Below are positions 3,217-29,707 of a stretch of 35,821 bases of DNA, piece by piece. The position numbers and the translations under genes are program-made. The notes below the pieces were generated by a model that worked only from the letters and a program-made list of their open reading frames with translations, did no database searches and had not been told where the DNA came from. The stretch spans positions 1-35,821 of the IMG/VR virus record IMGVR_UViG_3300034159_000120, one strand, 5' to 3'. How positions within the stretch are numbered: position 1 is the stretch's first letter; each line of letters opens with the position of its first letter. Origin of the DNA: a virus.

Positions 3217-3417
3217 CGCCACACCCCCGCCGCGTCGCCGGCCAGACACGCGGCGGACACCGAACCGTCATGAACGGGCGAAACGAACGGGCAGAGAAAT
3301 GGCGACATAAAGGTTCCCGGATTAGCGGGCGGTTAGGGCGCCGGGCGCGGCGCCGATTTCGGCGAGGGCTTCACAGCCAGGCCCCATGGCCCAGCACATG
3401 ATCGGCAGGGACATCCG

Positions 3418-3438
3418 AAAAAAAACCCGCGACCGGGT
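3418..3438 (-). terminator. Short rho-independent terminator after the Cro-like gene
   Basis: Read on the minus strand, a 5 bp stem (ACCCG/CGGGT, 3438-3434 with 3429-3425) with a 4-base loop is followed directly by eight T. The stem is short, so it may be leaky, attenuating early leftward transcription between the Cro-like gene and the replication genes. The rest of the 3217-3483 gap holds no gene I can support; a 30-codon frame there has no ribosome binding site. Confidence 0.5.
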
Positions 3439-3483
3439 GCGATGCCGGGGCGGGCTGGGAGGAGCAAGAAGCGAGAAATGAGG

Positions 3484-3693
3484 TCACGCCGCGCAATCCT
3501 CGTTTTCCGTTTCTATCTCGCTTAATGCAGAAAGCAAGTTCTGAACGGATTTCAGTCCGGGAGATTCGTATCTACCGCATGCAAATTTGCTAATCCAACT
3601 AATTGACATGCCTGATTTTTCTGACAGCAATCCATACTGCCCGCGAAGAGCGGCAACCCTAGCCCTAAGAGTGGCGAGATCGATGGTTTCCAT
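3484..3693 (-). CDS. Cro-like helix-turn-helix regulator
   Basis: This encodes 69 residues, divergent from the CI-like gene at 3761. Residues about 18-45 form a helix-turn-helix (LSEKSGMSISWISKFACGRY), giving the size and place expected of a lambdoid-type Cro. The region is noticeably AT-richer than its neighbours. Its start lies only 13 bases from operator O1, so it is likely repressed by CI and in turn binds the same operators. No strong Shine-Dalgarno is visible before ATG 3693. Confidence 0.8.
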   Translation of the reverse strand: METIDLATLRARVAALRGQYGLLSEKSGMSISWISKFACGRYESPGLKSVQNLLSALSEIETENEDCAA

Positions 3694-3705
3694 ACAAATC
3701 AGGCT

Positions 3706-3719
3706 AGCACTTTAGTGCT
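3706..3719. promoter_or_regulatory. Operator O1 of the phage switch
   Basis: The palindrome AGCAC-TTTA-GTGCT lies in the 67 bp Cro/CI intergenic region. It shares the half-sites AGCAC/GTGCT and the 4-base spacer with three further sites at 3729, 4157 and 4188. The repeat is seen directly; binding by the CI or Cro product is inferred from position. Confidence 0.8.
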
Positions 3720-3726
3720 GGCTCGG

Positions 3727-3744
3727 CAAGCACCCTTGTGCTTG
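3727..3744. promoter_or_regulatory. Operator O2 of the phage switch
   Basis: CAAGCAC-CCTT-GTGCTTG is a perfect palindrome with 7 bp arms, the most symmetrical of the four sites. Its centre lies 23 bp from that of O1, roughly two helical turns, which suits cooperative binding of dimers. It sits just upstream of the CI ribosome binding site (GGGAGG), so occupancy would also autoregulate CI. Confidence 0.8.
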
Positions 3745-3760
3745 TTCGGGAGGTCAGGAT

Positions 3761-4120
3761 ATGAAGATGGACGGAAACACCCGAGCGGCCATCGCCCGCA
3801 ACGTAAAAATGCTTAGAGAATCAATATCTCTAAGCCAATCTCAGCTTGCCGCAAAAGCCGGCATCGGCCAAACGTCAATCTCCAACATGGAGCAACCGGA
3901 CGGGAAGAGCCCCACATCCGACACACTAGATAGTGTGGCGCACGCACTCAGAGTCCCCCCTTGGGTTCTTATGCTTCCCAACATCCCATCCGATCAAGGG
4001 ACGTTGAAACAGCTGGAAAAGTTGGCTCTCACCTATATCGCAGTCAACGATGATGGCCGCCGTACCATTGACACCATCGCGGAAGCCGAAGCCCGATACT
4101 TCTCCCAGCTGATCGCCTAG
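3761..4120 (+). CDS. CI-like XRE-family phage repressor
   Basis: This encodes 119 residues with a clear XRE helix-turn-helix at about residues 14-66 (LRESISLSQSQLAAKAGIG, QTSISNMEQ). The tail of about 50 residues is too short for a LexA-like self-cleaving domain, so induction probably does not use RecA-stimulated autocleavage. The antirepressor gene downstream would supply an alternative route. A strong ribosome binding site (GGGAGGTCAGGA) precedes the ATG; a second ATG two codons later is possible. The gene is flanked on both sides by operator pairs. Confidence 0.88.
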   Translation: MKMDGNTRAAIARNVKMLRESISLSQSQLAAKAGIGQTSISNMEQPDGKSPTSDTLDSVAHALRVPPWVLMLPNIPSDQGTLKQLEKLALTYIAVNDDGRRTIDTIAEAEARYFSQLIA

Positions 4121-5633: not shown

Positions 5634-6002
5634 ATGCCCCCTCCTTCCCTAGCCCAAACCCTCGGCGAGCTGGACGCCGGCTCGTTCGAGTCCCAAGCCA
5701 GCGCCGCCCTCCGCGACATCGCCAAAGCCGTGCGCGACCACGACGAACGCCGCGGCAAGGCCAAGGGCCAGCTCTGCATCAAGATCGCCTTCGAGCGCAG
5801 CAAGGGCAGCGGGCAGCTCTTGGTCACCCACACACTCACCTACAGCCGCCCCACCGAGATCGGCGAGCTCTCCGAGAAGAGCACCGGCAGTACTCAGATG
5901 TATTGCAGCGCGGAGGGGGCGTTGTCCGTCCTACCCGAGGCCCAAGGCCGCTTCGACTTCGACACCGCGATCCCGACCCTTCGCCAGGAGACCAAGCCAT
6001 GA
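5634..6002 (+). CDS. Hypothetical phage protein paired with the DUF2303 gene
   Basis: This encodes 122 residues. CAGGAG lies 7 bases upstream of ATG 5634, and the stop overlaps the next start as ATGA. The N-terminal half is helical (SQASAALRDIAKAVRDHDER) and the middle has strand-like segments (GQLCIKIAFERS, GQLLVTHTLTY). The coupling to the DUF2303 gene suggests a shared role. Function is unknown. Confidence 0.8.
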   Translation: MPPPSLAQTLGELDAGSFESQASAALRDIAKAVRDHDERRGKAKGQLCIKIAFERSKGSGQLLVTHTLTYSRPTEIGELSEKSTGSTQMYCSAEGALSVLPEAQGRFDFDTAIPTLRQETKP

Positions 6003-6808
6003 GCGCCCCCACCATCGACTTGACCCTATTGCGCGACATCATCTCCGGGGGCCTGAACCCGGCCGAAGGGGTCTGCCTGATCCCGGACGGATACAAGCTC
6101 GCCGACCTGGAGCAGTACCAGGCGCAACCCAACGCGCTGCGCGGGACCTATCACGCGCGCACCATCGCCGAGTTCGCGCGCTACGTCCTGGAGCAGGACA
6201 GCCTGCGCTATGCCCGGATCTTCCTGGACCCCGAGGCCATGAGCGCCGTCGCTCGCCTGGACCACGGCAACGCGGGCGATCCCGGTTGGGGCCGCCACCG
6301 GGCGGCGGTCAAGCTGGCCTCCCCGCCCGCGTTCGAGGCGTTCATGGAGATCGCCGCGGCTCCGGTGACCCAGACGTTGCTGATCGACTACGTGATCGAC
6401 TGGGCAGACCACCTGGAGTTCAGCGCCGCGGGTGCCGAGGCCCCGTGGCAGGAGATGAAACCCGCCGCCGCCGTCCAGGCCCTGCGCAAGGTCTCCACCG
6501 AGGTCCATCGCGACGCCACCCACACCCAAACCGACACCGCCCGCGAGCGCTCCGTCCTGGAGAAGTCCGCCATCGTGTCGACCCCACCGCTCTTGCTGCG
6601 CTGGTCCGGCATCCCGGCCGAGGGTTTATCCGAGATCGGCATCCGCGCCCGGTTGGTCTATTTGCCCAAAGACCCGCCACAGATCCGCGTGCGCCCCATC
6701 GCTCTAGCCGAGCTCCGACAGAATATGGCAGACGAGTTCCGGGACCAGGTGCGGGCGGCGATTGCAGAGGCGGCGCCGGTGCATATCGGTGTTTTTGCGG
6801 ACAAATAA
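5999..6808 (+). CDS. DUF2303 family phage protein
   Basis: This encodes 269 residues. It has the layout of DUF2303: a start with TIDLTLLRDI and PDGYKLADLEQY, then the TFAEF-like segment (here HARTIAEFARYV), a central ARLDHGNAGDPGWGRHRAAV stretch, and a C-terminal beta region (LRWSGIPAEGLSEIGIRARL). The family is common in temperate phages near early or recombination genes, with no proven function. A fragment resembling its codons for RWSGIPAEGL reappears 240 bases further on beside a CRISPR-like repeat (6842-6872). Confidence 0.85.
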   Translation: MSAPTIDLTLLRDIISGGLNPAEGVCLIPDGYKLADLEQYQAQPNALRGTYHARTIAEFARYVLEQDSLRYARIFLDPEAMSAVARLDHGNAGDPGWGRHRAAVKLASPPAFEAFMEIAAAPVTQTLLIDYVIDWADHLEFSAAGAEAPWQEMKPAAAVQALRKVSTEVHRDATHTQTDTARERSVLEKSAIVSTPPLLLRWSGIPAEGLSEIGIRARLVYLPKDPPQIRVRPIALAELRQNMADEFRDQVRAAIAEAAPVHIGVFADK

Positions 6809-6810
6809 AA

Positions 6811-6839
6811 GCGGTAAAGGGGACAGGCCCCTTTACCGC
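6811..6839. repeat. 12 bp stem hairpin after the DUF2303 gene
   Basis: GCGGTAAAGGGG and CCCCTTTACCGC form a perfect stem around ACAGG. It starts two bases after the stop codon. There is no T run, so it is not a classical terminator, though it may protect the mRNA end. The GGGGACAGG-containing form resembles REP palindromes spread by RAYT transposases; that resemblance is from memory. Confidence 0.65.
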
Positions 6840-6841
6840 CC

Positions 6842-6915
6842 GCGCTGGACCGGCATCCCGGCCGAGGGCCTGTTTCAATCGTTTCAATCCACGCCCGACT
6901 CGCATCGGGCGATAC
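6842..6915 (-). CRISPR. Single CRISPR-like repeat with spacer-like fragment of a DUF2303 gene
   Basis: The repeat, written on the plus strand, is 6881-6915: GTTTCAATCCACGCC, then stem CGCCCGA/TCGGGCG with a 6-base loop, then ATAC. On the minus strand it ends in ATTGAAAC, the 8-base crRNA handle of type I-C and several III/I-B repeats. The handle plus one base is duplicated (6872-6880). Next to it, 6842-6872 matches 6598-6628 of the DUF2303 gene at 27 of 31 bases; it would code RWTGIPAEGL against RWSGIPAEGL, partly with different codons. It therefore looks like a spacer taken from a related phage. No cas genes are present. Confidence 0.65.
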
Positions 6916-6962
6916 CGGAACCGAAGTCCCGATACGATCATTGTATATGCGGAAGAAGCCCC

Positions 6963-7151
6963 ATGCCATCCATCCGAGACCGCGATGTATTGTTGATTGT
7001 CCCCGCGATGATCTTCGGCGTGGTCTTGGGATTGATGGCGCTCTTCGGTGTCGTCAACACCCTGGCCGCCATCGGCGCCGCGACAATCGCCGGAATGATC
7101 GGGGTCGGTCTCATCGCCTGGGCAATGCAGCCCAACGACCGGGATAACTAG
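6963..7151 (+). CDS. Small two-span membrane protein
   Basis: This encodes 62 residues with two hydrophobic helices (about residues 9-29, VLLIVPAMIFGVVLGLMAL, and 34-55, TLAAIGAATIAGMIGVGLIA) and a short charged C-terminus. AGAAG lies 5 bases upstream of the ATG. It starts after the CRISPR-like element and is two bases from the next gene. Size and topology would allow a holin or a superinfection-exclusion protein, but it lies away from the lysis genes, so the role is open. Confidence 0.7.
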   Translation: MPSIRDRDVLLIVPAMIFGVVLGLMALFGVVNTLAAIGAATIAGMIGVGLIAWAMQPNDRDN

Positions 7152-7153
7152 CC

Positions 7154-7738
7154 ATGCCAACCGTCGCCCCCGATCTACGACCTTTGGCCTGGACCTCCTG
7201 GATCACCGACCCGGAGCGCTTCGATGCCCGCCGTGGGGACGACCGGTTCATCGTGTCTTCCGACGACGGCGCTTGGACGTGGGTGGTCGAGCGCGTGCTT
7301 TCCACCCACGGCGAAGGCGTTGTAGCGAGAGCGTGTGGCGAGGCATGGAGCCTCGAGGACGCCCAGCAAGCCGCCACCGGGCATCGCTGGGAAGAGATCG
7401 CCCTGACCTACGATCACCCGACCGGGCAGGAGACCGTCTGGATCAGCGGAGATACCCTCCTGCCCGACCCCAACCAGCGCACCTGGACCGCCTGCCTGGA
7501 CGGCGATCGCGCGCAGATCCACCTCTCCGGGGTCCGCCGAGAGCTGGATCGCCCTTGGTATTGGTCGCGCCACTGCGCCCAGGCCGCCGAGCTGCTCGCC
7601 CTGTGCGGGGATCGCCTGCACGGCTACGCCGCGACCCGGGAGACGGCCATGATCGCGGCCATCGAAGCCCCGGACCAATTGCGGCGGGCGGCCGCGGCAT
7701 TCTTGGCGCAGTGGCGGACGGACCGAGAACTGCTGTGA
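7154..7738 (+). CDS. Hypothetical phage protein, Trp-rich
   Basis: This encodes 194 residues beginning two bases after the previous stop; its TGA overlaps the next GTG as GTGA. Trp residues and strand-like segments (WISGDTLLPD, WTACLDGDRAQIHLSGV) suggest a beta domain, followed by a helical C-terminus (AAELLALCGD to FLAQWRTDREL). No recognised family. It belongs to a run of tightly coupled accessory genes. Confidence 0.75.
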   Translation: MPTVAPDLRPLAWTSWITDPERFDARRGDDRFIVSSDDGAWTWVVERVLSTHGEGVVARACGEAWSLEDAQQAATGHRWEEIALTYDHPTGQETVWISGDTLLPDPNQRTWTACLDGDRAQIHLSGVRRELDRPWYWSRHCAQAAELLALCGDRLHGYAATRETAMIAAIEAPDQLRRAAAAFLAQWRTDRELL

Positions 7739-8040: not shown

Positions 8041-8330
8041 CGTACCAACCCGTAGGATGCGGTGACGAAGGAACCGCATCGTTCGCTGGCGATGCGGTTC
8101 CTTCGTCGCCGCATCCTACGGCATTGCATGGGGTCGCCTTGGAACCGCTTATTAACTGGCTTGAGCGCCAGAACGGGGCAATTCTCTACGTTCACTCCGA
8201 TGGACGTATCACGCTGCGCCTTGGGCCGTTTGGCTCGGATCTGGCGAGATCCGACCAGGAAGAGAAAAAGATCACTGGTCAGGGAATGATTGATACGCTT
8301 GAGAAAGCGCGGTCCGCTTTTCCAAGCTAA
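8037..8330 (+). CDS. Hypothetical protein with a palindromic repeat inserted in frame
   Basis: This encodes 97 residues, coupled by ATGA to the previous gene. Residues about 6-28 (VGCGDEGTASFAGDAVPSSP and on) are encoded entirely by the 72 bp palindrome at 8050-8121. The rest (LEPLINWLERQNGAILYVHS, then a short strand-rich segment) looks like ordinary coding sequence. Either the palindrome has inserted and stayed in frame, or the true start lies after it (for example GTG 8131) and only the latter part is made. Confidence 0.55.
   Translation: MTYQPVGCGDEGTASFAGDAVPSSPHPTALHGVALEPLINWLERQNGAILYVHSDGRITLRLGPFGSDLARSDQEEKKITGQGMIDTLEKARSAFPS
8050..8121. repeat. 72 bp near-perfect palindrome (REP/MITE-like)
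   Basis: Two 32 bp arms (8050-8081 and 8090-8121) pair at 31 of 32 positions around an 8-base loop. The outer part is CCGTAGGATGCGG, and inside each arm is a smaller GATGCGGT/ACCGCATC inverted repeat. A half-length relative occurs at 32897-32936, so this is a dispersed element rather than a local hairpin. Confidence 0.8.
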
Positions 8331-8357: not shown

Positions 8358-8570
8358 ATGAACGCAGAGCTATCCGACTGGGCAGACCGCGCCGCGGCGC
8401 TCCTGTCCGAGATCCTGGAAGAAGCCATCCGTTCGAGCGGAGACGGGGCCAGCCATGACATTGCCGTCGCACTGCAAGAGTATTCGGACATCAAGAACGG
8501 CCGCCCGACCTGGCGGACGCGGCTGAGCGCTACTCCAGACCGCGAAAAGACCACGCTCGATAGCCTATAG
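8358..8570 (+). CDS. Small hypothetical protein
   Basis: This encodes 70 residues. The N-terminal half is one amphipathic helix (ELSDWADRAAALLSEILEEA) and the C-terminus is basic. A weak GAG lies about 9 bases before the ATG. Spacing of 27 and 11 bases to its neighbours fits the accessory gene string. No family recognised. Confidence 0.55.
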   Translation: MNAELSDWADRAAALLSEILEEAIRSSGDGASHDIAVALQEYSDIKNGRPTWRTRLSATPDREKTTLDSL

Positions 8571-10348: not shown

Positions 10349-11319
10349 GATCGGGGTGGATCGCGCAAGGCCCGGCGCCCGCACCGACAGCCGGGCGCAC
10401 CTTCGAGGACCTCATGATCCTCGCCCTGCCCGAGCGCCGCGCTCGCGGGTGCGATTGGAGCAACGACCAAAGTGTTGTGCGGATGCTTCGTACAGCGCTT
10501 TCCGGACGCGACCTGGCGACGCTCACCGGGGCGGATGTGCGCGGATATATCGCCGTTCGCACCGGCGCCGGACTCTCGCCCGGGGCGCTGAACAAAGAGC
10601 TTGGATTGATGTCGGCCACGACGAACTGGGCCAACCGCGAGCTTGAGTGGGGCCTGCCGAACCCTTGGCAGGGGCGGCGACTGCGCGAGCCAACCGGGCG
10701 GACTCGGTATCTCACCCGCGACGAAGCTGAGGCCCTGTTTGTATCTGCTGACAAGAGACGCGACCGATACCCGTGGATCGCCGATTTCTGCCGCCTGTGC
10801 GTATTCACCGGCTTAAGGTCTGGTGAGGCCCTGGGCCTGGAGTGGTCGCGCGTCGACCTGACGGCTCGACGGATCTCCTTCTTTGCCGCAGACCAGAAGT
10901 CCAGAAAGCGCGGCGCGATCCCGATCAACGAATCCGCTCGCGCGGCCCTGCTTACCCGGGCCAGCTACCGGGCCGAGCACTGCCCGGGGTCGCCTTGGGT
11001 CTTTTTCCGGAAAGATGGCAGCCGGGTGCAAAGTATACGCAAAGGGTTCGACGCATCGGCCGCCGACGCCGGCCTCGAGGATTTGCACCCGCACGACCTG
11101 CGGCGAACCTTCGGGTCCTGGCTCGTGCAGTCGGGGGTTGGGATCGAGCGCGTCTCGGAGCTATTGCGCCACGGGGACGTGCGGATCACGGCCCATGTCT
11201 ATGCCCATCTGCGGCCCGGAGATTTGGCGGAAGCCGCGCGAGTTTTGGACGCGAGCCCGGTACAGGGTTTCACGCCAGGGTTTCACGCGCCCGGCGATAA
11301 TAAAAAATCCGCTGACTAA
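10192..11319 (+). CDS. int: Tyrosine integrase (phage site-specific recombinase)
   Basis: This encodes 375 residues. The catalytic set is visible: Arg209 in TGLRSGEAL, His301 and Arg304 in HDLRRTFG, His327 in LLRHGD, and the nucleophile Tyr337 in HVYAHLRPG. The N-terminal about 170 residues hold the arm- and core-binding domains (DGIYRRPDSPYWWATI). It integrates the phage by recombining attP with the host attB. A tRNA 3' fragment lies 23 bases after its stop, as expected of integrase-attP pairs. The start overlaps the excisionase frame. Confidence 0.95.
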   Translation: MPRHKRDQDGIYRRPDSPYWWATITDPRGGSTRRSTGVRAAEDPEGIQAQAVRSGWIAQGPAPAPTAGRTFEDLMILALPERRARGCDWSNDQSVVRMLRTALSGRDLATLTGADVRGYIAVRTGAGLSPGALNKELGLMSATTNWANRELEWGLPNPWQGRRLREPTGRTRYLTRDEAEALFVSADKRRDRYPWIADFCRLCVFTGLRSGEALGLEWSRVDLTARRISFFAADQKSRKRGAIPINESARAALLTRASYRAEHCPGSPWVFFRKDGSRVQSIRKGFDASAADAGLEDLHPHDLRRTFGSWLVQSGVGIERVSELLRHGDVRITAHVYAHLRPGDLAEAARVLDASPVQGFTPGFHAPGDNKKSAD

Positions 11320-11325
11320 GCGGAT
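11302..11325 (-). terminator. Terminator at the end of the late operon
   Basis: On the minus strand, ATCCGCT (11325-11319) and AGCGGAT (11313-11307) form a 7 bp stem around a 5-base loop, followed by a run of T. It would stop leftward late transcription arriving from the tail hub gene. The hairpin contains the integrase stop codon. Confidence 0.75.
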
Positions 11326-11342
11326 GTATATAGAGTGTTTTT

Positions 11343-11392
11343 TGGTGGGCGCGGCAGGGATCGAACCTGCGACTTCCCCCGTGTGAAGGAGC
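11343..11392 (-). other. attP core: 3' half of a tRNA-Val (CAC) gene
   Basis: On the minus strand the sequence runs from the anticodon arm (GCTCC, loop TTCACAC, GGGGG) through the T-arm (GCAGG-TTCGATC-CCTGC) to the acceptor strand CGCGCCC, A, CCA. No D-arm or 5' acceptor strand is present, so it is not a working tRNA gene. Phages that integrate into tRNA genes carry exactly such a 3' part to restore the tRNA. The anticodon loop fits valine CAC. AT-rich DNA to 11460 could hold integrase arm sites. Confidence 0.85.
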
Positions 11393-19404: not shown

Positions 19405-22113
19405 TCAGGTGGATGCGAGCCCCGAGCGCCGTATGGCATCCAGCAGGGCGTTATCCTGCCCCTCGGGCAGGTCTAAGTGAGCGGTCTTGCCACCGGACAC
19501 CAGCTCGACGCGCACGGTGCGGAAGGCTCTGCGCGGCTCTCTCTCCGCGGCGGCGGCGGATTCCGGTGGGGCAGTGGCGGCGGCCGGTTGGCGTTGAGCG
19601 TCTTCTTTCGCCCAGATGGCGCGGACTTCGGCGAGCTTGTCGCCAATAAAGCGGCTTCTGTCCCCGGTGCCGCCGCGGGTGCGCTGAAACAGATAGTCGG
19701 CCAAGTCCTTCTCGCGACCTTTGTTCGTTGGGGTCTGGCCGAATTGCTTGGCGAGGTTCTCGGCGTTCCAGCTCGCGGCCCACGCGGTGGCCCCCGCCGT
19801 CGAGAAATTGTTCGCCGCTTCGGCCTTCTTGGCTTCCGCATCGGCCCCGGCCTGGCGTGCGCCGGCATCGCGTTCGGCTTCGTCCGCGGATCGTCCCGTG
19901 GCGTTAGCCACCTCATCCGCGGCGGCGGCCAGGGCCTGCTCGTGCCGCAGCGCCTCCTTGGCCGCATCCGCCTCCAGTTGTTTGGCGCGCGCGGCCTGTT
20001 CCGCCGCGGCCACGGCGGCGCGGGTCTCCAGACTGGTATCGCCCTCCGCCTGTGCCTGCCGAAGCAGGGCAAGGGCCAGGGCTTGGGCCGCATCGGCTTC
20101 CTCGCGCTTGGCCTGGGCGTTGGCCTTGGCGGCACGGATGCTGGCCCACGCGACCTCGTCGCCCAGCCGGGCGGCTTCCGCGGCATCCCCGCGGGCGATG
20201 GCTTCCGCGCGCAGGTTTTGCATGTGGGTCACCCGAGCATCGCCCTCGGACTGGATGAGGCCAACGGAGCGACCGCGGATTTCCAGCTCCAGTTGGGCGG
20301 CTTCGATGGCGATGCGCCGCGCGTTGGATTCCTCTTGGATGCGCCGCGCCGACTCGGCTTTGGCTTGCGCTTCGGTTTGGGCGGCCGCGGCGGCTTGGGC
20401 GGTGGCGGCGGCGTGGGCTTCGGCCACCGGGACGGCGGCTTGGGTAGCGGCCGTCAGGGATGCCTGACCCGCCGCGGCAAAGTCGGCCGAGGCGCCCAGG
20501 GCGTCGAGCGCATCGGCCGTGATGCCGACCGATTGGGTGGCGGTCTGGGCATTGGCGGCGAGGGTTTGGGTGCCGGTCGTTTGGGTGCCGACCATGCGCA
20601 GGAACGCATCGCCCGACGCGGCGAAGTGTTGTTGGGACGCGGCGCTGAAATCCGCCCAGGCTTGCCCGGCGGTATCCGCCGCGGCGCGGGCCTTGAGCGC
20701 CGTCTGGTCTTGAGCGAGCCCGACTTTGTTGGCGCCCTCCACGATGGAGGCATAGGCGGACAGGACGGTCGTGGCCAAGGCGGAGAAGGCCGCGCCGACC
20801 GCCTCGACCGTGGCGCGGAAGCCGTTCCAGATCCCGGAGACGGCCGCGACCACCCGGGCGGAGGCTTCCCCAACCGCTTCGATCTTGGCCCGCGCCCCAT
20901 CCAAGGCGGCGCCGGCCCGGGCGGCGAAGTCGGCCAGGTTCTGCGCAACGGCGGCCAGGTCGAAGGAGCCGACGAACTGCTTGGCAGCGGCTACGGCGGC
21001 CTCGAACGCGGAGACGATGGACGCACGGAAGGTGTCGAGCTGCCCGGACTGCACCCAGGCCCGCAAGGACGCGGAGACGGAGCGGATCTCCCGCTCCAGG
21101 GGTCCGAGGAGGGATTCGCCGACCTTGGTCTTGATGCTGTCCCACAGCTTGCCCAGCTCCCCGAAGGCCCCGAACAGGTTGTCCTGCATCGCCGCGGCGG
21201 CCTTGGCGGCTTCCCCGCCCATGCCGGCGATCTTGTCGCGCAGTCCGTCGACGCCTTGCCCGCCGGACGCGACCAGGGCCCGCAGTCCCGGGCCGGCCTC
21301 GGTGCCGAATGCCAGGATGGCCTTTTCGGCGGCCGGGGTGCCGGCGGCCAACGCGTCCAGGACGGTGGAGAGATCCCGGGAGGTGACGCCCATGCCGGAC
21401 AGGGCGGCGCTGGCTTTGCTGGCCGGGTCCTGTAATTGGGAAAAGATGGAGTTAAGCGCGGTGCCGGCCCGGCTGGCGTCGATTCCCGAATTGGCCATGA
21501 TGCCGACGGCGGCGGCGGCCTGTTCGATGCTGTAGCCGGCGGCTTTGGCCATCGGCCCGGCATAGGAGAGGGCTTCGGCCAGGGCTTTGACGGAGGTGTT
21601 GCTGGCGTTGGCACCCGCGGTGAGGGTGTCGGCGACCCGGCCGGCTTCTTGGGCGGACAACCCGAAAGCGCCGAGCTGGGCGGTCACGATGCCGGCGGAC
21701 TCACCCACCTCCAGTTGAGCGGCCGCGGCGAGGTTGAGGACCGGGGGCAGGGAGGCGATGACCTCTTGGGCGCTCTGGCCCGCCCGGGCGAGCTCGATCT
21801 GACCCGCCGCGGCTTGGGCGGCGGTATAGGGCAAGGGGCTGTCGGCCACCGCTTCGGCGGCGGCCTTGAGGGCGAGCATCTCGTCTGCACTGGCCCCGGA
21901 GGTTTGCTGCAGGACGGAGAGTTGTTGCTCTAGTGAGCCCGCGGAATCGACGGCGCTCTCGAAGTAATTGGCGAGCGCCCGGCCGGTGAAGTACGCGGCG
22001 ATGGCGGCGCCGAGTTGGGTGACACGGCCGCCGACGGCTTGCAATACGCGACTGGCCCGATCTTCAGCCGCAATCAGAAGGCGGATGGCGAGGTTGTTGC
22101 TCGGGGGTGGCAT
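19405..22113 (-). CDS. Tail tape measure protein
   Basis: This encodes 902 residues, nearly all helical and Ala-rich. The N-terminal 300 residues match the TP901-type tape measure core (LEQQLSVLQQTSGASADEML, VADTLTAGANASNTSVKALA, SGIDASRAGTALNSIFSQLQ), followed by long coiled coil (about 560-760). It sets tail length. An in-frame TAA lies four codons before ATG 22113 and no ribosome binding site is visible there; instead a CRISPR-like repeat starts 16 bases upstream. Translation may depend on coupling or the site may have been altered by insertion of that element. Confidence 0.92.
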   Translation of the reverse strand: MPPPSNNLAIRLLIAAEDRASRVLQAVGGRVTQLGAAIAAYFTGRALANYFESAVDSAGSLEQQLSVLQQTSGASADEMLALKAAAEAVADSPLPYTAAQAAAGQIELARAGQSAQEVIASLPPVLNLAAAAQLEVGESAGIVTAQLGAFGLSAQEAGRVADTLTAGANASNTSVKALAEALSYAGPMAKAAGYSIEQAAAAVGIMANSGIDASRAGTALNSIFSQLQDPASKASAALSGMGVTSRDLSTVLDALAAGTPAAEKAILAFGTEAGPGLRALVASGGQGVDGLRDKIAGMGGEAAKAAAAMQDNLFGAFGELGKLWDSIKTKVGESLLGPLEREIRSVSASLRAWVQSGQLDTFRASIVSAFEAAVAAAKQFVGSFDLAAVAQNLADFAARAGAALDGARAKIEAVGEASARVVAAVSGIWNGFRATVEAVGAAFSALATTVLSAYASIVEGANKVGLAQDQTALKARAAADTAGQAWADFSAASQQHFAASGDAFLRMVGTQTTGTQTLAANAQTATQSVGITADALDALGASADFAAAGQASLTAATQAAVPVAEAHAAATAQAAAAAQTEAQAKAESARRIQEESNARRIAIEAAQLELEIRGRSVGLIQSEGDARVTHMQNLRAEAIARGDAAEAARLGDEVAWASIRAAKANAQAKREEADAAQALALALLRQAQAEGDTSLETRAAVAAAEQAARAKQLEADAAKEALRHEQALAAAADEVANATGRSADEAERDAGARQAGADAEAKKAEAANNFSTAGATAWAASWNAENLAKQFGQTPTNKGREKDLADYLFQRTRGGTGDRSRFIGDKLAEVRAIWAKEDAQRQPAAATAPPESAAAAEREPRRAFRTVRVELVSGGKTAHLDLPEGQDNALLDAIRRSGLAST

Positions 22114-22128: not shown

Positions 22129-22164
22129 GTTTCAATCCACGCCAGGCGCAAGGCCTGGCGATAC
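22129..22164 (-). CRISPR. Solitary CRISPR-like repeat before the tape measure gene
   Basis: The 36 bp repeat reads GTTTCAATCCACGCC on the plus strand, has a perfect 8 bp stem (CGCCAGGC/GCCTGGCG) around a GCAAG loop, and ends ATAC. It shares both ends with the element at 6881-6915, but the stem bases differ by compensating pairs. On the minus strand its ATTGAAAC handle is followed directly by the 15-base leader and start of the tape measure gene. No second repeat is seen. Confidence 0.6.
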
Positions 22165-23141: not shown

Positions 23142-23939
23142 TTACGCGGTACGCACGCGGAATCGATACGGAGCGCCGGGAGTAAATCCGCGCACGGCGA
23201 CGCTTGGGACTAACATATCGCCGCTTAATTCGACGCGCAGATAATCGCCGCCGGTCGCATCGAATGTCCCGGCCGGGGCCAGGTTGGCACGCCAGATGTC
23301 CAGGTCCCCGATTTTCCCGCTCACCTGGTTTTTGGCCTGGCCAGTGATATGGACGTACTTATTGAGGGCGAGTCCGCCTTGGTATTGCTCCCAGGTGCCG
23401 GCCGCCGGGTGATACGAGAGCTTCATCCCGACCCCGACGGCATCGGCGTGAGTGGCTTTGATCATGCCGAGCACATGGTCGATCTCGTACTTGGTGGCGG
23501 CAACGGCCACGTCCGAGGAGGTCACAAGCGCGATCTCGGTGCCGGTGCCGGCCGCGGCGATGGCGTAGTTGGCCAGCGGGACCCACATGCCCAGCACGGT
23601 GTTGACGGCCTCTGACGCGACGGCGGCCGCGGTCTGGGTGACCTCCGAGACGGTGGCGCCCAGCGCGATCGCTTGCAGGTCCGGGGTGAAGGTGGACGCG
23701 GTCAGGGTGACCTGAGCGGTTTTTTCCGTGGGGACGGACTGCGAATCGATGGCGGCCCCTTGGGTGGATGTCATTCTGGAAATGAGTTTTTTGATCTCCT
23801 GCTCGGGCGCGGAGATCTCCAATTTCTCGTTGTTGATGAAATCGGAATAGCTCGTCGGCGGGACGGTGTCTGAGACCCAGAAACCAAAACGGGCCTCTAA
23901 TAGAGTGAATAATGGTGCAGGGGCGGTGCGTAAACTCAT
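23142..23939 (-). CDS. Probable major tail tube protein
   Basis: This encodes 265 residues. It has a beta-rich, Ala/Val/Thr-rich composition, with QVTLTASTFTPDLQAIALGA in the first half and Gly-rich strands at the end (GDYLRVELSGDMLVPSVAVR). Order (after head-tail joining and completion genes, before tape measure) and length fit a siphophage tail tube subunit. GGGAG lies 8 bases before the ATG, and ATTGAAAC just before that. The coding start MSLRTAPAPL is mirrored by spacer 2 of the adjacent CRISPR-like array. Confidence 0.75.
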   Translation of the reverse strand: MSLRTAPAPLFTLLEARFGFWVSDTVPPTSYSDFINNEKLEISAPEQEIKKLISRMTSTQGAAIDSQSVPTEKTAQVTLTASTFTPDLQAIALGATVSEVTQTAAAVASEAVNTVLGMWVPLANYAIAAAGTGTEIALVTSSDVAVAATKYEIDHVLGMIKATHADAVGVGMKLSYHPAAGTWEQYQGGLALNKYVHITGQAKNQVSGKIGDLDIWRANLAPAGTFDATGGDYLRVELSGDMLVPSVAVRGFTPGAPYRFRVRTA

Positions 23940-23960: not shown

Positions 23961-24122
23961 CGCTTTATCCCCGCGCGTACGGGGAACATTTAGCGGCATC
24001 CGCGGCCACATAGCCGCTGGTAGCGCGGTTCGCGGTTAATCCCCGCATATGCGGGGAACATCCCATGACGATGCGTACCGCACCCGCACCGCTCGGTTCA
24101 TCCCCGCAAGGACGGGGAACAT
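23961..24122 (-). CRISPR. Three-repeat type I-E-like mini-CRISPR array
   Basis: The 29 bp repeats are at 23961-23989, 24033-24061 and 24094-24122. All read (plus strand) CGSTT, then ATCCCCGC, a short variable loop, CGGGGAACAT; E. coli type I-E repeats have the same ATCCCCGC/GCGGGGA stem. Spacer 2 (24062-24093) is exactly 32 bp, the type I-E length; spacer 1 is 43 bp with an apparent short duplication (GCGCGGTTCGCGGTT) at its end. On the minus strand the handles are ATAAAGCG, ATTAACCG and ATGAACCG. Spacer 2 would code MTMRTAPAPL, close to MSLRTAPAPL at the start of the neighbouring tail gene. No cas genes are in the window. Confidence 0.85.
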
Positions 24123-27273: not shown

Positions 27274-27714
27274 TTACGCAGTGCCTTCCGCCGGCGCCAG
27301 ATGGGCCTCGCCCGCCACGCCGGTGCCATGGGTCGCGGGTAGCTCGCGGCTGCGGTATTGGATATAAGTCAGCGTCTCCGCGCAGGCGTTGGTGGCGTCT
27401 TTGTCGACCACGGCGCGCAGGTAGCGCTCGCGCGGCTGATAGATGTCGATGTATTTGATTTTGCTGTCGTCATCGTCGGCGACGGCGATTTTAGTCGCGG
27501 CCAGGTCGGCGGCATCGGTGACGGTGCCATTAGAACCTTGTTGCAGTTTTATCGCATTCACGCCGCCGGTCGCGACGGCACCGAATTGGGCGATGACGAG
27601 AAGTCCATCCCAGCCCATCATATCGATCACGGCGCCTTCACGGTCGGCGTTGCCGGTACCGTAGGCGAGGCCGACGCTAATCTTTATCTGAGCGGACAAG
27701 AAGCCGTTGTGCAT
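27274..27714 (-). CDS. Head-associated protein, possible decoration or stabilisation
   Basis: This encodes 146 residues with GGAG 9 bases upstream of the ATG. It comprises beta strands with LLVIAQFGAVATGGVNAIKL, then an acidic loop (ADDDDSKIKYIDIYQPRERY). It directly follows the capsid gene, where decoration or head-completion proteins lie. A diverged copy of its GGVNAIKLQQG codons sits in the gap upstream (27794-27831) beside a CRISPR-like repeat. Confidence 0.75.
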   Translation of the reverse strand: MHNGFLSAQIKISVGLAYGTGNADREGAVIDMMGWDGLLVIAQFGAVATGGVNAIKLQQGSNGTVTDAADLAATKIAVADDDDSKIKYIDIYQPRERYLRAVVDKDATNACAETLTYIQYRSRELPATHGTGVAGEAHLAPAEGTA

Positions 27715-27761
27715 GGAAACTCACTCCGGATAGAATCGAGTTGGGAGAGGGGACCTCTTCC

Positions 27762-27849
27762 GAATTCGCCCATTGATGGGCGTGGATTGAAACCCCTGCT
27801 GCATTTTGATGGCATTGACGCCGCTCATCGCCCGGTCAATCGACCGGGC
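27762..27849 (+). CRISPR. CRISPR-like repeat with spacer-like fragment of the neighbouring head gene
   Basis: The plus-strand repeat (27762-27793) has a stem CGCCCAT/ATGGGCG and ends GTGGATTGAAAC, matching the elements at 6881 and 22129 except for its 5' end. The next 38 bases (27794-27831) code, on the minus strand, AMSGVNAIKMQQG, against ATGGVNAIKLQQG in the gene at 27274-27714. Identity is 29 of 38 bases, with mostly synonymous changes (GTC/GTG, GCC/GCG, ATC/ATA, CAG/CAA). An 8 bp stem (GCCCGGTC/GACCGGGC, 27830-27849) then follows at a 62-base period and may be a second, decayed repeat or the capsid gene's terminator. Confidence 0.65.
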
Positions 27850-27856
27850 ACACCAA

Positions 27857-29707
27857 TCAAGTCGCCTTCGCAAAGCTCTCGCCATGCCGAACCGCCACAT
27901 CGGCATCCTGGAATGCGCGAATGACGAGCCCGCCGGACGCGGCCAGCTTGGCTTCGTCGGGCTTGATATCCAAGACGCCCCAATAGCCGACCAGAATCTG
28001 CGACCAATCCCCGAAGAGCAGGGCGTTGGTGCTCAATTGCGTGGTGCGGCGCACCGGGTAGCCATTGACGGTGCCGTTGTCGTCCATGATGAAGATGGCT
28101 TGGTTGGTCGCCTTGGGGGTGACCTTCATTTTGCCCACGACGGCCGGGGTGGTGATGTAGCCGAGCGCGCCGACTAAGGCGTTGTCGGTCTCGATTTCGG
28201 TTTCCAGTTGGACGACTTCGCCCCAAGTGGGGGTGCCGTCGGTGGTGACCGCGACGGTATTGATGGACGGATGATTGACGATGCCGCGCGGGGCCTTGAC
28301 GCCGTCGCCCTCGAAGATCGCCAGATCCAGCGCCAGGGCGCAGCCGTCGACCAGGTCCATGCGGACTAAGGCTTCGACGGACGGGCTCGATTGCTGAAGC
28401 AACCGGCGGGTCATGGCGATGCCGCCCGCAATGGTGCGCGGGGACATGGCGACCGCGCCGAATTGGATGTCGGTATCGGGCGCGTCCTCGCCTTCGCTAA
28501 TCCAGGAGAAGGTCCCGACGCTGGTTTTCTTGGGGATGCTGAGGTTCCCCACCAGTCCGGTCAGAGTGCGCACGCCCGCGGTCATGGCCACAGAGGTGGC
28601 GCGCAGGGCGTCGATAAAGAGATCCGGCCGGTGATCGGTGCCGACCAGGAAGCCGCCGTAGGTGGGGTTGCCCGCGCTCAGGGTCTCGGCGCGCTGGACG
28701 AGGGCCCCGCGACCGATGTCGGCCTGGACTTCCAGGGGGACGAAGAATCCCCGCGGGGCGCGACCGAGGCGGTCGGCGACCGCGCGGGATGCCTCCAGCT
28801 CGAAACCGGCCTTTTGCCAGTTGCCGCTGAGCGACGCGTTGCAGGCGCGCACGATGGAGAATTGCTGCGCTTCCCGCGGGCTCATGCCGATCTGCGCCGC
28901 CGGATCGGGCCAGGCGAGGGCGGGTTCTTTGGCCTTGCGCTCGGAGAGCAGGGACCAGACTTTGCCGCGGAATTCTTCGAACGACTGGCCGAATTGGATG
29001 TAGTCCTGCCCCAGGCGTTCGATGCCAAGCTCCGGGGCACGGCCCGAGGCATAGCGGGCGAGCTCCATGATGTTGGCGGTGCGCTGTCCGTCGGAGACGC
29101 CGGCGGCGGCGACGGCGAGAACGGGGAGGTTGTTGGCCGAACCTTCGGATTCGGCGGCCGGGGTCGGCTCTGGCATGGGATTCACTCCAAGTGGTGGAGC
29201 CGCGAGGGCCGCGGCACGGGCGATGCCGACGGAGGGGTCGGCGCCGCGGTCGACTAAAGAAACCTCGCGAGGTTTCCATCGCAAAGCGATGAGATAGTTC
29301 GGATCTTCGCGCACGGCTGAGATGGAGGCGCCGACGCTGGTGTCGGTGATGATGCCGTCCACACAGTCCTGATAGAGCTGACGGCCGCGCTCCGAGCGGG
29401 AGAAGCGGATGGTGCCGAGCAACCGCCCGGAGTCCAGGCGCACGTTGACGACACGGCCCACGGGGAGGTGGCGGGCGTGCATCTCTTGCACGGGGATGCC
29501 GCGGGTCTGCGCTTCGGCGATGTCGATCGCGCTCGGGTCCATGGAGAGCTGGATGGGCCCGTTCCAGGGGTCTTCGACGATGGCATCGGAGGCGAACGAG
29601 CAGGGGATTTCCAGCGCGGCGGCATCGGCCGCGGCGCGGTCGATCTGCAACGGGATCTGGGGTTCGTGCTCCCGCAGCGCGGTCAAGCGGGGGGCGATGT
29701 CAGGCAT
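27857..29707 (-). CDS. Fused prohead protease and major capsid protein (HK97 fold)
   Basis: This encodes 616 residues. Residues about 1-165 are an HK97-type prohead protease: HARHLPVGRVVNVRL carries the His (77/80) and DTSVGASI the Ser (124/128), ending EVSLVDRGAD. A linker rich in Pro, Ala and Ser follows. From about 280 the HK97 capsid domain begins (GTFSWISEGEDAPDTDIQFG, AVAMSPRTIAGGIAMTRRLL, then ALALDLAIFEGDG, and the C-terminal FGDWSQILVGYWGVLDIKPD). Start ATG 29707 overlaps the portal stop by 8 bases. The protease probably frees the capsid domain during maturation. Confidence 0.93.
   Translation of the reverse strand: MPDIAPRLTALREHEPQIPLQIDRAAADAAALEIPCSFASDAIVEDPWNGPIQLSMDPSAIDIAEAQTRGIPVQEMHARHLPVGRVVNVRLDSGRLLGTIRFSRSERGRQLYQDCVDGIITDTSVGASISAVREDPNYLIALRWKPREVSLVDRGADPSVGIARAAALAAPPLGVNPMPEPTPAAESEGSANNLPVLAVAAAGVSDGQRTANIMELARYASGRAPELGIERLGQDYIQFGQSFEEFRGKVWSLLSERKAKEPALAWPDPAAQIGMSPREAQQFSIVRACNASLSGNWQKAGFELEASRAVADRLGRAPRGFFVPLEVQADIGRGALVQRAETLSAGNPTYGGFLVGTDHRPDLFIDALRATSVAMTAGVRTLTGLVGNLSIPKKTSVGTFSWISEGEDAPDTDIQFGAVAMSPRTIAGGIAMTRRLLQQSSPSVEALVRMDLVDGCALALDLAIFEGDGVKAPRGIVNHPSINTVAVTTDGTPTWGEVVQLETEIETDNALVGALGYITTPAVVGKMKVTPKATNQAIFIMDDNGTVNGYPVRRTTQLSTNALLFGDWSQILVGYWGVLDIKPDEAKLAASGGLVIRAFQDADVAVRHGESFAKAT

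Follow-up and report, generated by a model that had tools for sequence, protein, structure and literature searches.

We have examined a 35,821-nucleotide stretch of viral DNA, positions 1 to 35,821 of IMG/VR record IMGVR_UViG_3300034159_000120 and hereafter called the window, and find that this phage carries four CRISPR-like units, three with repeats of the I-C type (sites 1 to 3) and one with repeats of the I-E type (Table 1). Site 1 is a single intergenic repeat beside a gene of the DUF2303 family, with no other repeat within 100 bp and with a 9-nt partial repeat adjoining it; it scores 37.0 bits against the Rfam family CRISPR-DR9 (E 4.5e-5), below the gathering score of 45. The 15-mer GTTTCAATCCACGCC, at 6881-6895 in site 1, has three exact copies in the 35.8 kb, all of them intergenic, at 6881(+), 22129(+) and 27793(-). 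Read on the strand opposite to the 15-mer, sites 1 to 3 have the handle ATTGAAAC at the 3' end, and the solitary repeat folds like the cognate repeat. A first-pass annotation of the sequence had described the site 1 repeat, its handle and a duplication of the handle with one further base, and all of these are present (GTTTCAATC, repeated at 6872-6880). It had also called the repeat solitary, which is true of site 1 but not of the phage, with its four units of two subtypes; sites 2 and 3, the I-E mini-array and the sites resembling a promoter and a terminator on either side of site 1 had been overlooked.

Table 1. Features of the four units and of the genes beside them (window coordinates)
Feature	Position	Strand	Basis or remark
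DUF2303 gene	5999..6808	+	Pfam PF10065, E 1.5e-23; matching stretch 6598-6628
Site 1, terminator-like hairpin directly after the segment	6809..6841	-	Fold z -3.9; T-rich tail
Site 1, spacer-position segment, antisense to DUF2303	6842..6871	-	Compared over 6842-6872
Site 1, second handle copy GATTGAAAC	6872..6880	-	Sequence
Site 1, I-C-like repeat GTATCGCCCGATGCGAGTCGGGCGTGGATTGAAAC	6881..6915	-	CRISPR-DR9, fold, stem covariation
Site 1, upstream promoter-like site ATGGCA-18-TACAAT	6940..6969	-	Consensus match only
Site 2, I-C-like repeat, leader of tape-measure gene (19405-22113)	22129..22164	-	CRISPR-DR9, 34.4 bits (below gathering score, 45)
Gene adjoining the I-E array	23142..23939	-	Own start MSLRTAPAPL
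Degenerate I-E-like repeat, last in crRNA sense	23961..23989	-	Repeat comparison
I-E mini-array interval	23990..24032	-	43 nt against the normal 32; no target
I-E-like repeat, second in crRNA sense	24033..24061	-	Repeat comparison
I-E spacer, 32 nt, AGCGGTGCGGGTGCGGTACGCATCGTCATGGG in crRNA sense	24062..24093	-	30/32 to G001 gene start
I-E-like repeat, first in crRNA sense	24094..24122	-	Repeat comparison
Small gene after major head protein, holds site 3 matching stretch	27274..27714	-	No Pfam match
Site 3, I-C-like repeat	27760..27793	+	CRISPR-DR9, 22.6 bits (below gathering score, 45)
Site 3, 31-nt segment, antisense to GVNAIKMQQG	27794..27824	+	Diverged copy of GVNAIKLQQG, 27536-27566
Site 3, possible degenerate second repeat, which retains the hairpin but not the handle	27825..27861	+	Window's top match to the array-repeat hairpin (20/23); CRISPR-DR9, 13.9 bits, weak

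Anatomy of the four units

On the minus strand, site 1 runs from the promoter-like site (6969-6940) through the repeat, the second handle and the segment in the spacer position to the terminator-like hairpin (6841-6809). A scan of 6700-7160 gave no promoter-like or terminator-like site other than these two, both of which are consensus matches. This layout resembles that of a self-contained small-RNA gene in which a putative terminator hairpin replaces the second repeat. A noncanonical crRNA has been seen to arise from the same order of repeat, guide and terminator in the type I-E system of E. coli, there as a laboratory plasmid side product, whereas site 1 is natural and has a repeat of the I-C type (PMC5904413). 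Site 1 is known from one contig, that of this phage, because a second contig (G002), in which the I-E array is identical and sites 2 and 3 are intact, does not cover the site 1 region.

Site 2, like site 1 a single intergenic repeat with no second one inside 100 bp, is kept at the identical place in a relative of this phage, G001 (IMG/VR 3300034358_000028), and has no recoded segment beside it. Site 3 has one: its segment matches the neighbouring gene at 25 of 31 nucleotides (shuffles give at most 21) and at 9 of 10 residues, and is synonymous in six of the seven changed codons. No target was found for this segment, and a simple promoter and terminator scan gave neither kind of site at site 3 or at the I-E array. 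For an empty-site comparison of insertion at PAMs, no relatives lacking the unit were found.

The three 29-nt I-E-like repeats at 23961-24122 were met while other palindromes were being examined. Two of them bound the 32-nt spacer on either side; the longer interval that follows has no target in the window or in G001. The spacer matches the beginning of the adjacent gene as G001 has it (MTMRTAPAPL), at 30 of 32 positions and with the PAM AAG, a trinucleotide with a frequency of 1.3% in that genome; no shuffled spacer exceeds 24 of 32 there. The only mismatches fall at positions 6 and 24; AAG is the optimal PAM for type I-E interference, in which the base at each sixth position is flipped out (PMC5904413; accepted PAMs are given in PMC3764190). 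The probability that both mismatches would fall on sixth positions by chance is 0.02. The carrier's own gene matches the spacer at only 21 of 32 positions and has AAT in place of AAG. Sequence comparison thus shows an I-E spacer that suits a known relative and not its carrier, with the right PAM and mismatches predicted to be tolerated, beside an own gene that is altered.

Origin of the spacer-position segments

The first-pass annotation had also proposed that site 1 holds a fragment of a homologue's coding sequence, antisense to the DUF2303 mRNA, and not an exact local copy. Its particulars are borne out: 6842-6872 matches the phage's own gene at 27 of 31 positions, the orientation is antisense, the translation is RWTGIPAEGL against RWSGIPAEGL and the codon changes include GGC/GGT and CTG/TTA. 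Such a match is not due to chance, as just 2 of 400 random 31-mers from the window have a match of at least 27 elsewhere in it, and the best local match among 3,000 shuffles of the fragment is no higher than 22 of 31. The DUF2303 gene of G001 is 94% identical to that of this phage, and the fragment is closer to it (29/31) than to the gene next door.

These figures bear on a simple account of site 1, in which part of the DUF2303 gene was duplicated locally and drifted, and lies beside a repeat-like hairpin by chance. The own gene is indeed less than 250 bp away and matches at 27 of 31 positions, but the better match in G001 makes a simple local duplication unlikely; furthermore, the boundary of the segment falls exactly at the handle, and the arrangement is met again at site 3, at the I-E array and in other phages. 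We therefore give this account almost no credence. Origin from a homologue is supported by the closer match to G001 and backed by the same architecture, with mostly synonymous changes, at site 3, at the I-E array and in unrelated phages.

The search for a better match than the local gene thus succeeded in G001 but yielded no exact source. At the position of site 1, G001 has no such unit, and in IMG/VR neither the site 1 repeat nor the core of the fragment had an exact copy among the matches listed. The sequenced phages searched held no better match to the site 1 or the site 3 segment and no DNA relative of this phage, their DUF2303 homologues being only about 30% identical; nor did a genome contig collection and 369 Gammaproteobacteria hold a DUF2303 relative or a related prophage. 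Beside the stretch that matches the site 1 segment, the I-C PAM TTC is absent from both the own gene and that of G001, which shows GCC, and the exact target allele for site 1 is therefore still missing. A DUF2303 allele reading GAGGGCCTGAA / ...GGCCTGAA would supply the target, and we predict a TTC PAM on its other strand.

Cellular arrays and other phages

CRISPR-DR9 matches occur in 27 of 369 gammaproteobacterial genomes, typically as arrays with a spacing of 71-72 nt whose repeats read like GTATCGCCCGCTC....GAGCGGGCGCGGATTGAAAC, to be compared with GTATCGCCCGATGCGAGTCGGGCGTGGATTGAAAC at site 1. Arrays with GTATCGCC...GGATTGAAAC repeats adjoin Cas8c; Cas8c/Csd1 lies near a DR9 array in four genomes, one of which has a full set that adds Cas5d, Csd2, Cas4 and Cas1c. 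Because I-C cas genes stand beside DR9 arrays, we take the three units of this phage to be type I-C mimics; type III, considered for a repeat of 35-37 nt, was dropped on the same ground. The segments are about 31 nt long, and the spacing of I-C arrays implies 34-35. Of 274 gammaproteobacterial genomes, 6 contain the sequence CGGTTCATCCCCGCNNNNNCGGGGAACA, and four of these carry it in arrays whose spacing is 61 nt. One of them (G141) has an I-E locus with Cas7e, Cas5e, Cas6e, Cse2 and Cas1e, and a DR9 array lies some 9 kb away from where its I-E array starts, so bacteria with both repeat types exist. The spacers of the host arrays retrieved gave no match to this phage, and no cas gene was matched among the phage proteins scanned.

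In a comparison of six units from phages with seven repeats from arrays, 98% of stem pairs are kept, and both sides have changed in six of nine. This covariation bears on the possibility that the segments are scars without present function, left by repair from a host CRISPR array or by recombination between phage and array at spacer and repeat. Exact structures of protospacer, repeat and spacer are found in other sequences (L228, with 34 nt and TTC, and also L209 and L011), and site 1, with its tandem handle, is degenerate, as a scar might be. Against this, compensatory changes keep the stems paired, a diverged relative has retained site 2, and promoter-like and terminator-like sites bracket site 1, all of which argues for maintenance; in addition, the order at site 1 is repeat, spacer, gene and not gene, repeat, spacer. 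We thus consider scars a very unlikely explanation.

The segments at sites 1 and 3 have counterparts elsewhere. Because the pattern used to find units ahead of start codons introduced a bias, an unbiased sample of solitary I-C-type repeats, for which no start codon was required, was taken from IMG/VR; it covers the opening portion of the collection and is no random draw. Among the matches listed, most repeats are co-oriented with the flanking genes, and in about one third no more than 50 nt separate the end of the repeat from a start codon. A handle-anchored match of the spacer position within 300 bp was found for 9 of the 100 units listed and for 36 of 3,158 controls (1.1%), the controls being random positions of the same contigs and not matched intergenic positions; when the two sites of the window are left out, 7 of the 98 units listed have such a match (p 2.4e-4). 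Examples are L186, in which the gene end ADVSNTLMEMLLLY* is followed by the repeat and then by ADIGNTLMEMFS, TTC preceding the copy in the gene; L107, with the pair FDDAMAALRYG and IDDAMAALRYG; and G001 itself, where the end of the upstream gene is copied in recoded form (YDAA*). TTC lies near the gene copy in four of the seven cases outside the window, against a background of 10% (P 0.002), an enrichment that is suggestive only because the TTC window was picked after the cases had been seen.

Several single cases may be recorded here. At 8430-8567 of G001 (L009) a repeat, a recoded copy of a gene end, a second repeat and a partial repeat, with tandem handles, precede a start codon. In L046, L051, L091, L029, L074 and others, many in all, solitary I-C-type repeats end 0-15 nt ahead of the start codons of long phage genes, in the manner of 5' leaders. 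Units with tandem handles (GATTGAAAC repeated) occur in L152 (Treponema), L156 (Chloroflexota, by a tRNA-like sequence) and L168 (Nitrospiraceae); when sequences of this kind were sought in genomes, most proved to be chance matches and a few were real units. In L228 (reverse-complement 5680-5800) one I-C repeat lies between exact 34-nt copies, with TTC beside the first, inside a frame that reads like an IS3-type transposase; it may have arisen when a CRISPR array served as the template for repair. The structures in L209 and L011, likewise exact, are shorter.

Possible guides against relatives or possible RNA anti-CRISPRs

In three of the four units, as judged from sequence, the spacer position is shown to match a diverged homologue of the adjoining gene, antisense to that gene. 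We think it probable that site 1 is a virus-borne repeat-spacer unit, or mini-CRISPR, that mimics a type I-C repeat and serves in conflict between phages, and this phage may borrow the immune system of its host against its own relatives. The units would be transcribed and their transcripts processed by host Cas5d (I-C) or Cas6e (I-E), the processed RNAs from site 1 (-) and site 3 (+) beginning with UGGAUUGAAAC; loaded into host Cascade, these RNAs would direct an attack on related phages co-infecting the cell. Each guide would adjoin the carrier's own resistant allele, and the two would be kept adjacent because recombination separating them would cause self-targeting. Several observations speak against this reading: the searches gave no exact protospacer for site 1, TTC is missing beside its match in G001, the tandem handle should displace the guide, the segments are shorter than I-C array spacing implies, the simple scan shows neither promoter nor terminator at site 3 or the I-E array, and site 1 comes from a single contig.

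The principal alternative is that all of the I-C-type units are RNA anti-CRISPRs (Racrs), in which a solitary repeat occupies Cas5d/Cas7 and blocks the assembly of Cascade, the segment being incidental. In experiments RacrIC1 inhibits type I-C systems, and solitary repeats occur widely among viruses (PMC10651486). Like site 1, RacrIC1 is a solitary I-C repeat hairpin with a handle, intergenic in a phage and near a predicted promoter (PMC10651486). Site 1 has promoter-like and terminator-like sites of its own, site 2 lies in a gene leader without a recoded segment, stem structure is retained though stem sequence varies, and the duplicated handle at site 1 should spoil guiding. However, as Racrs the units would leave unexplained the recoded copies of adjacent genes at sites 1 and 3, which exceed chance in other phages too, and the I-E spacer with its fitting PAM in a relative. 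This phage also differs from the known Racrs in its recoded fragments of adjacent genes, its duplicated handle and its several units of two subtypes, and no anti-CRISPR protein gene was identified near its units. We thus regard the proposal that every I-C-type unit is a Racr as rather unlikely, if still the one that comes closest to the guide hypothesis.

The two functions can both hold, in different units of one phage. The tandem handle at site 1 should put the guide 9 nt from the processed handle, so site 1 is probably an inefficient guide now. In Xanthomonas, function of the I-C system is abolished when five PAM-proximal guide bases are lost (PMC8406640). Site 1 is, then, probably a weak or lost guide, and it may persist as an RNA anti-CRISPR, that is, a Racr-like decoy. 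We suggest this as a route by which solitary repeats and Racrs could arise from repeat-spacer units.

The closest known case to virus-borne guides of this kind is that of the mini-arrays of the Sulfolobales portogloboviruses SPV1 and SPV2, which are aimed at the sister virus; the carrier's own orthologous locus is mutated, and the target lies close to the array, for reasons that are unclear (PMC6858448). The I-E array of this phage shares these three properties, and those arrays, too, have one or two spacers, come without cas genes and target a close relative (PMC6858448). They differ in belonging to archaeal viruses and in having leader sequences, whereas the units described here are those of a bacterial tailed phage and have no recognised leader (PMC6858448); moreover, this phage has units of both the I-C and the I-E type, its repeats are degenerate and one unit ends in a terminator-like hairpin. 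The phage mini-arrays described by Koonin and Makarova likewise have host-like repeats and spacers that are mostly directed against related viruses (PMC11656645); what distinguishes this phage from the portion of that account considered here is the recoded target gene beside the guide and the mixture of I-C and I-E units. A bacterial phage whose units belong to two CRISPR subtypes thus shows target proximity of the kind seen in archaeal mini-arrays, and here the guides also have a recoded target gene at their side, which suggests a rule whereby a guide is linked to resistance, as in toxin-antidote pairs. A more elaborate version would make the units minimal gene drives, in which the guide cuts relatives beside the insertion point and repair spreads the guide together with the immune recoded allele. 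We judge this version quite unlikely; if true, it would account for the position of virus-borne spacers next to the gene they target.

Three other elements of the window deserve mention. A weak match to the 3' end of a beta-type tmRNA (GCAGGTTCGATCCCTGCCGCGCCCACCA) lies at 11285-11370 (-), at the end of the integrase gene, and is probably the attachment site of the phage, within a gene for tmRNA or tRNA. At 8050-8121 there is a REP-like, near-perfect palindrome of 72 nt (CCGTAGGATGCGG...), of which G001 has several similar copies at about 3400-4100. Finally, near a VapE-type gene, a 47-nt direct repeat (599-645 and 663-709, 96%) has inverted arms AGGTTGGACC/GGTCCAACCT, and its two copies are possible iterons.
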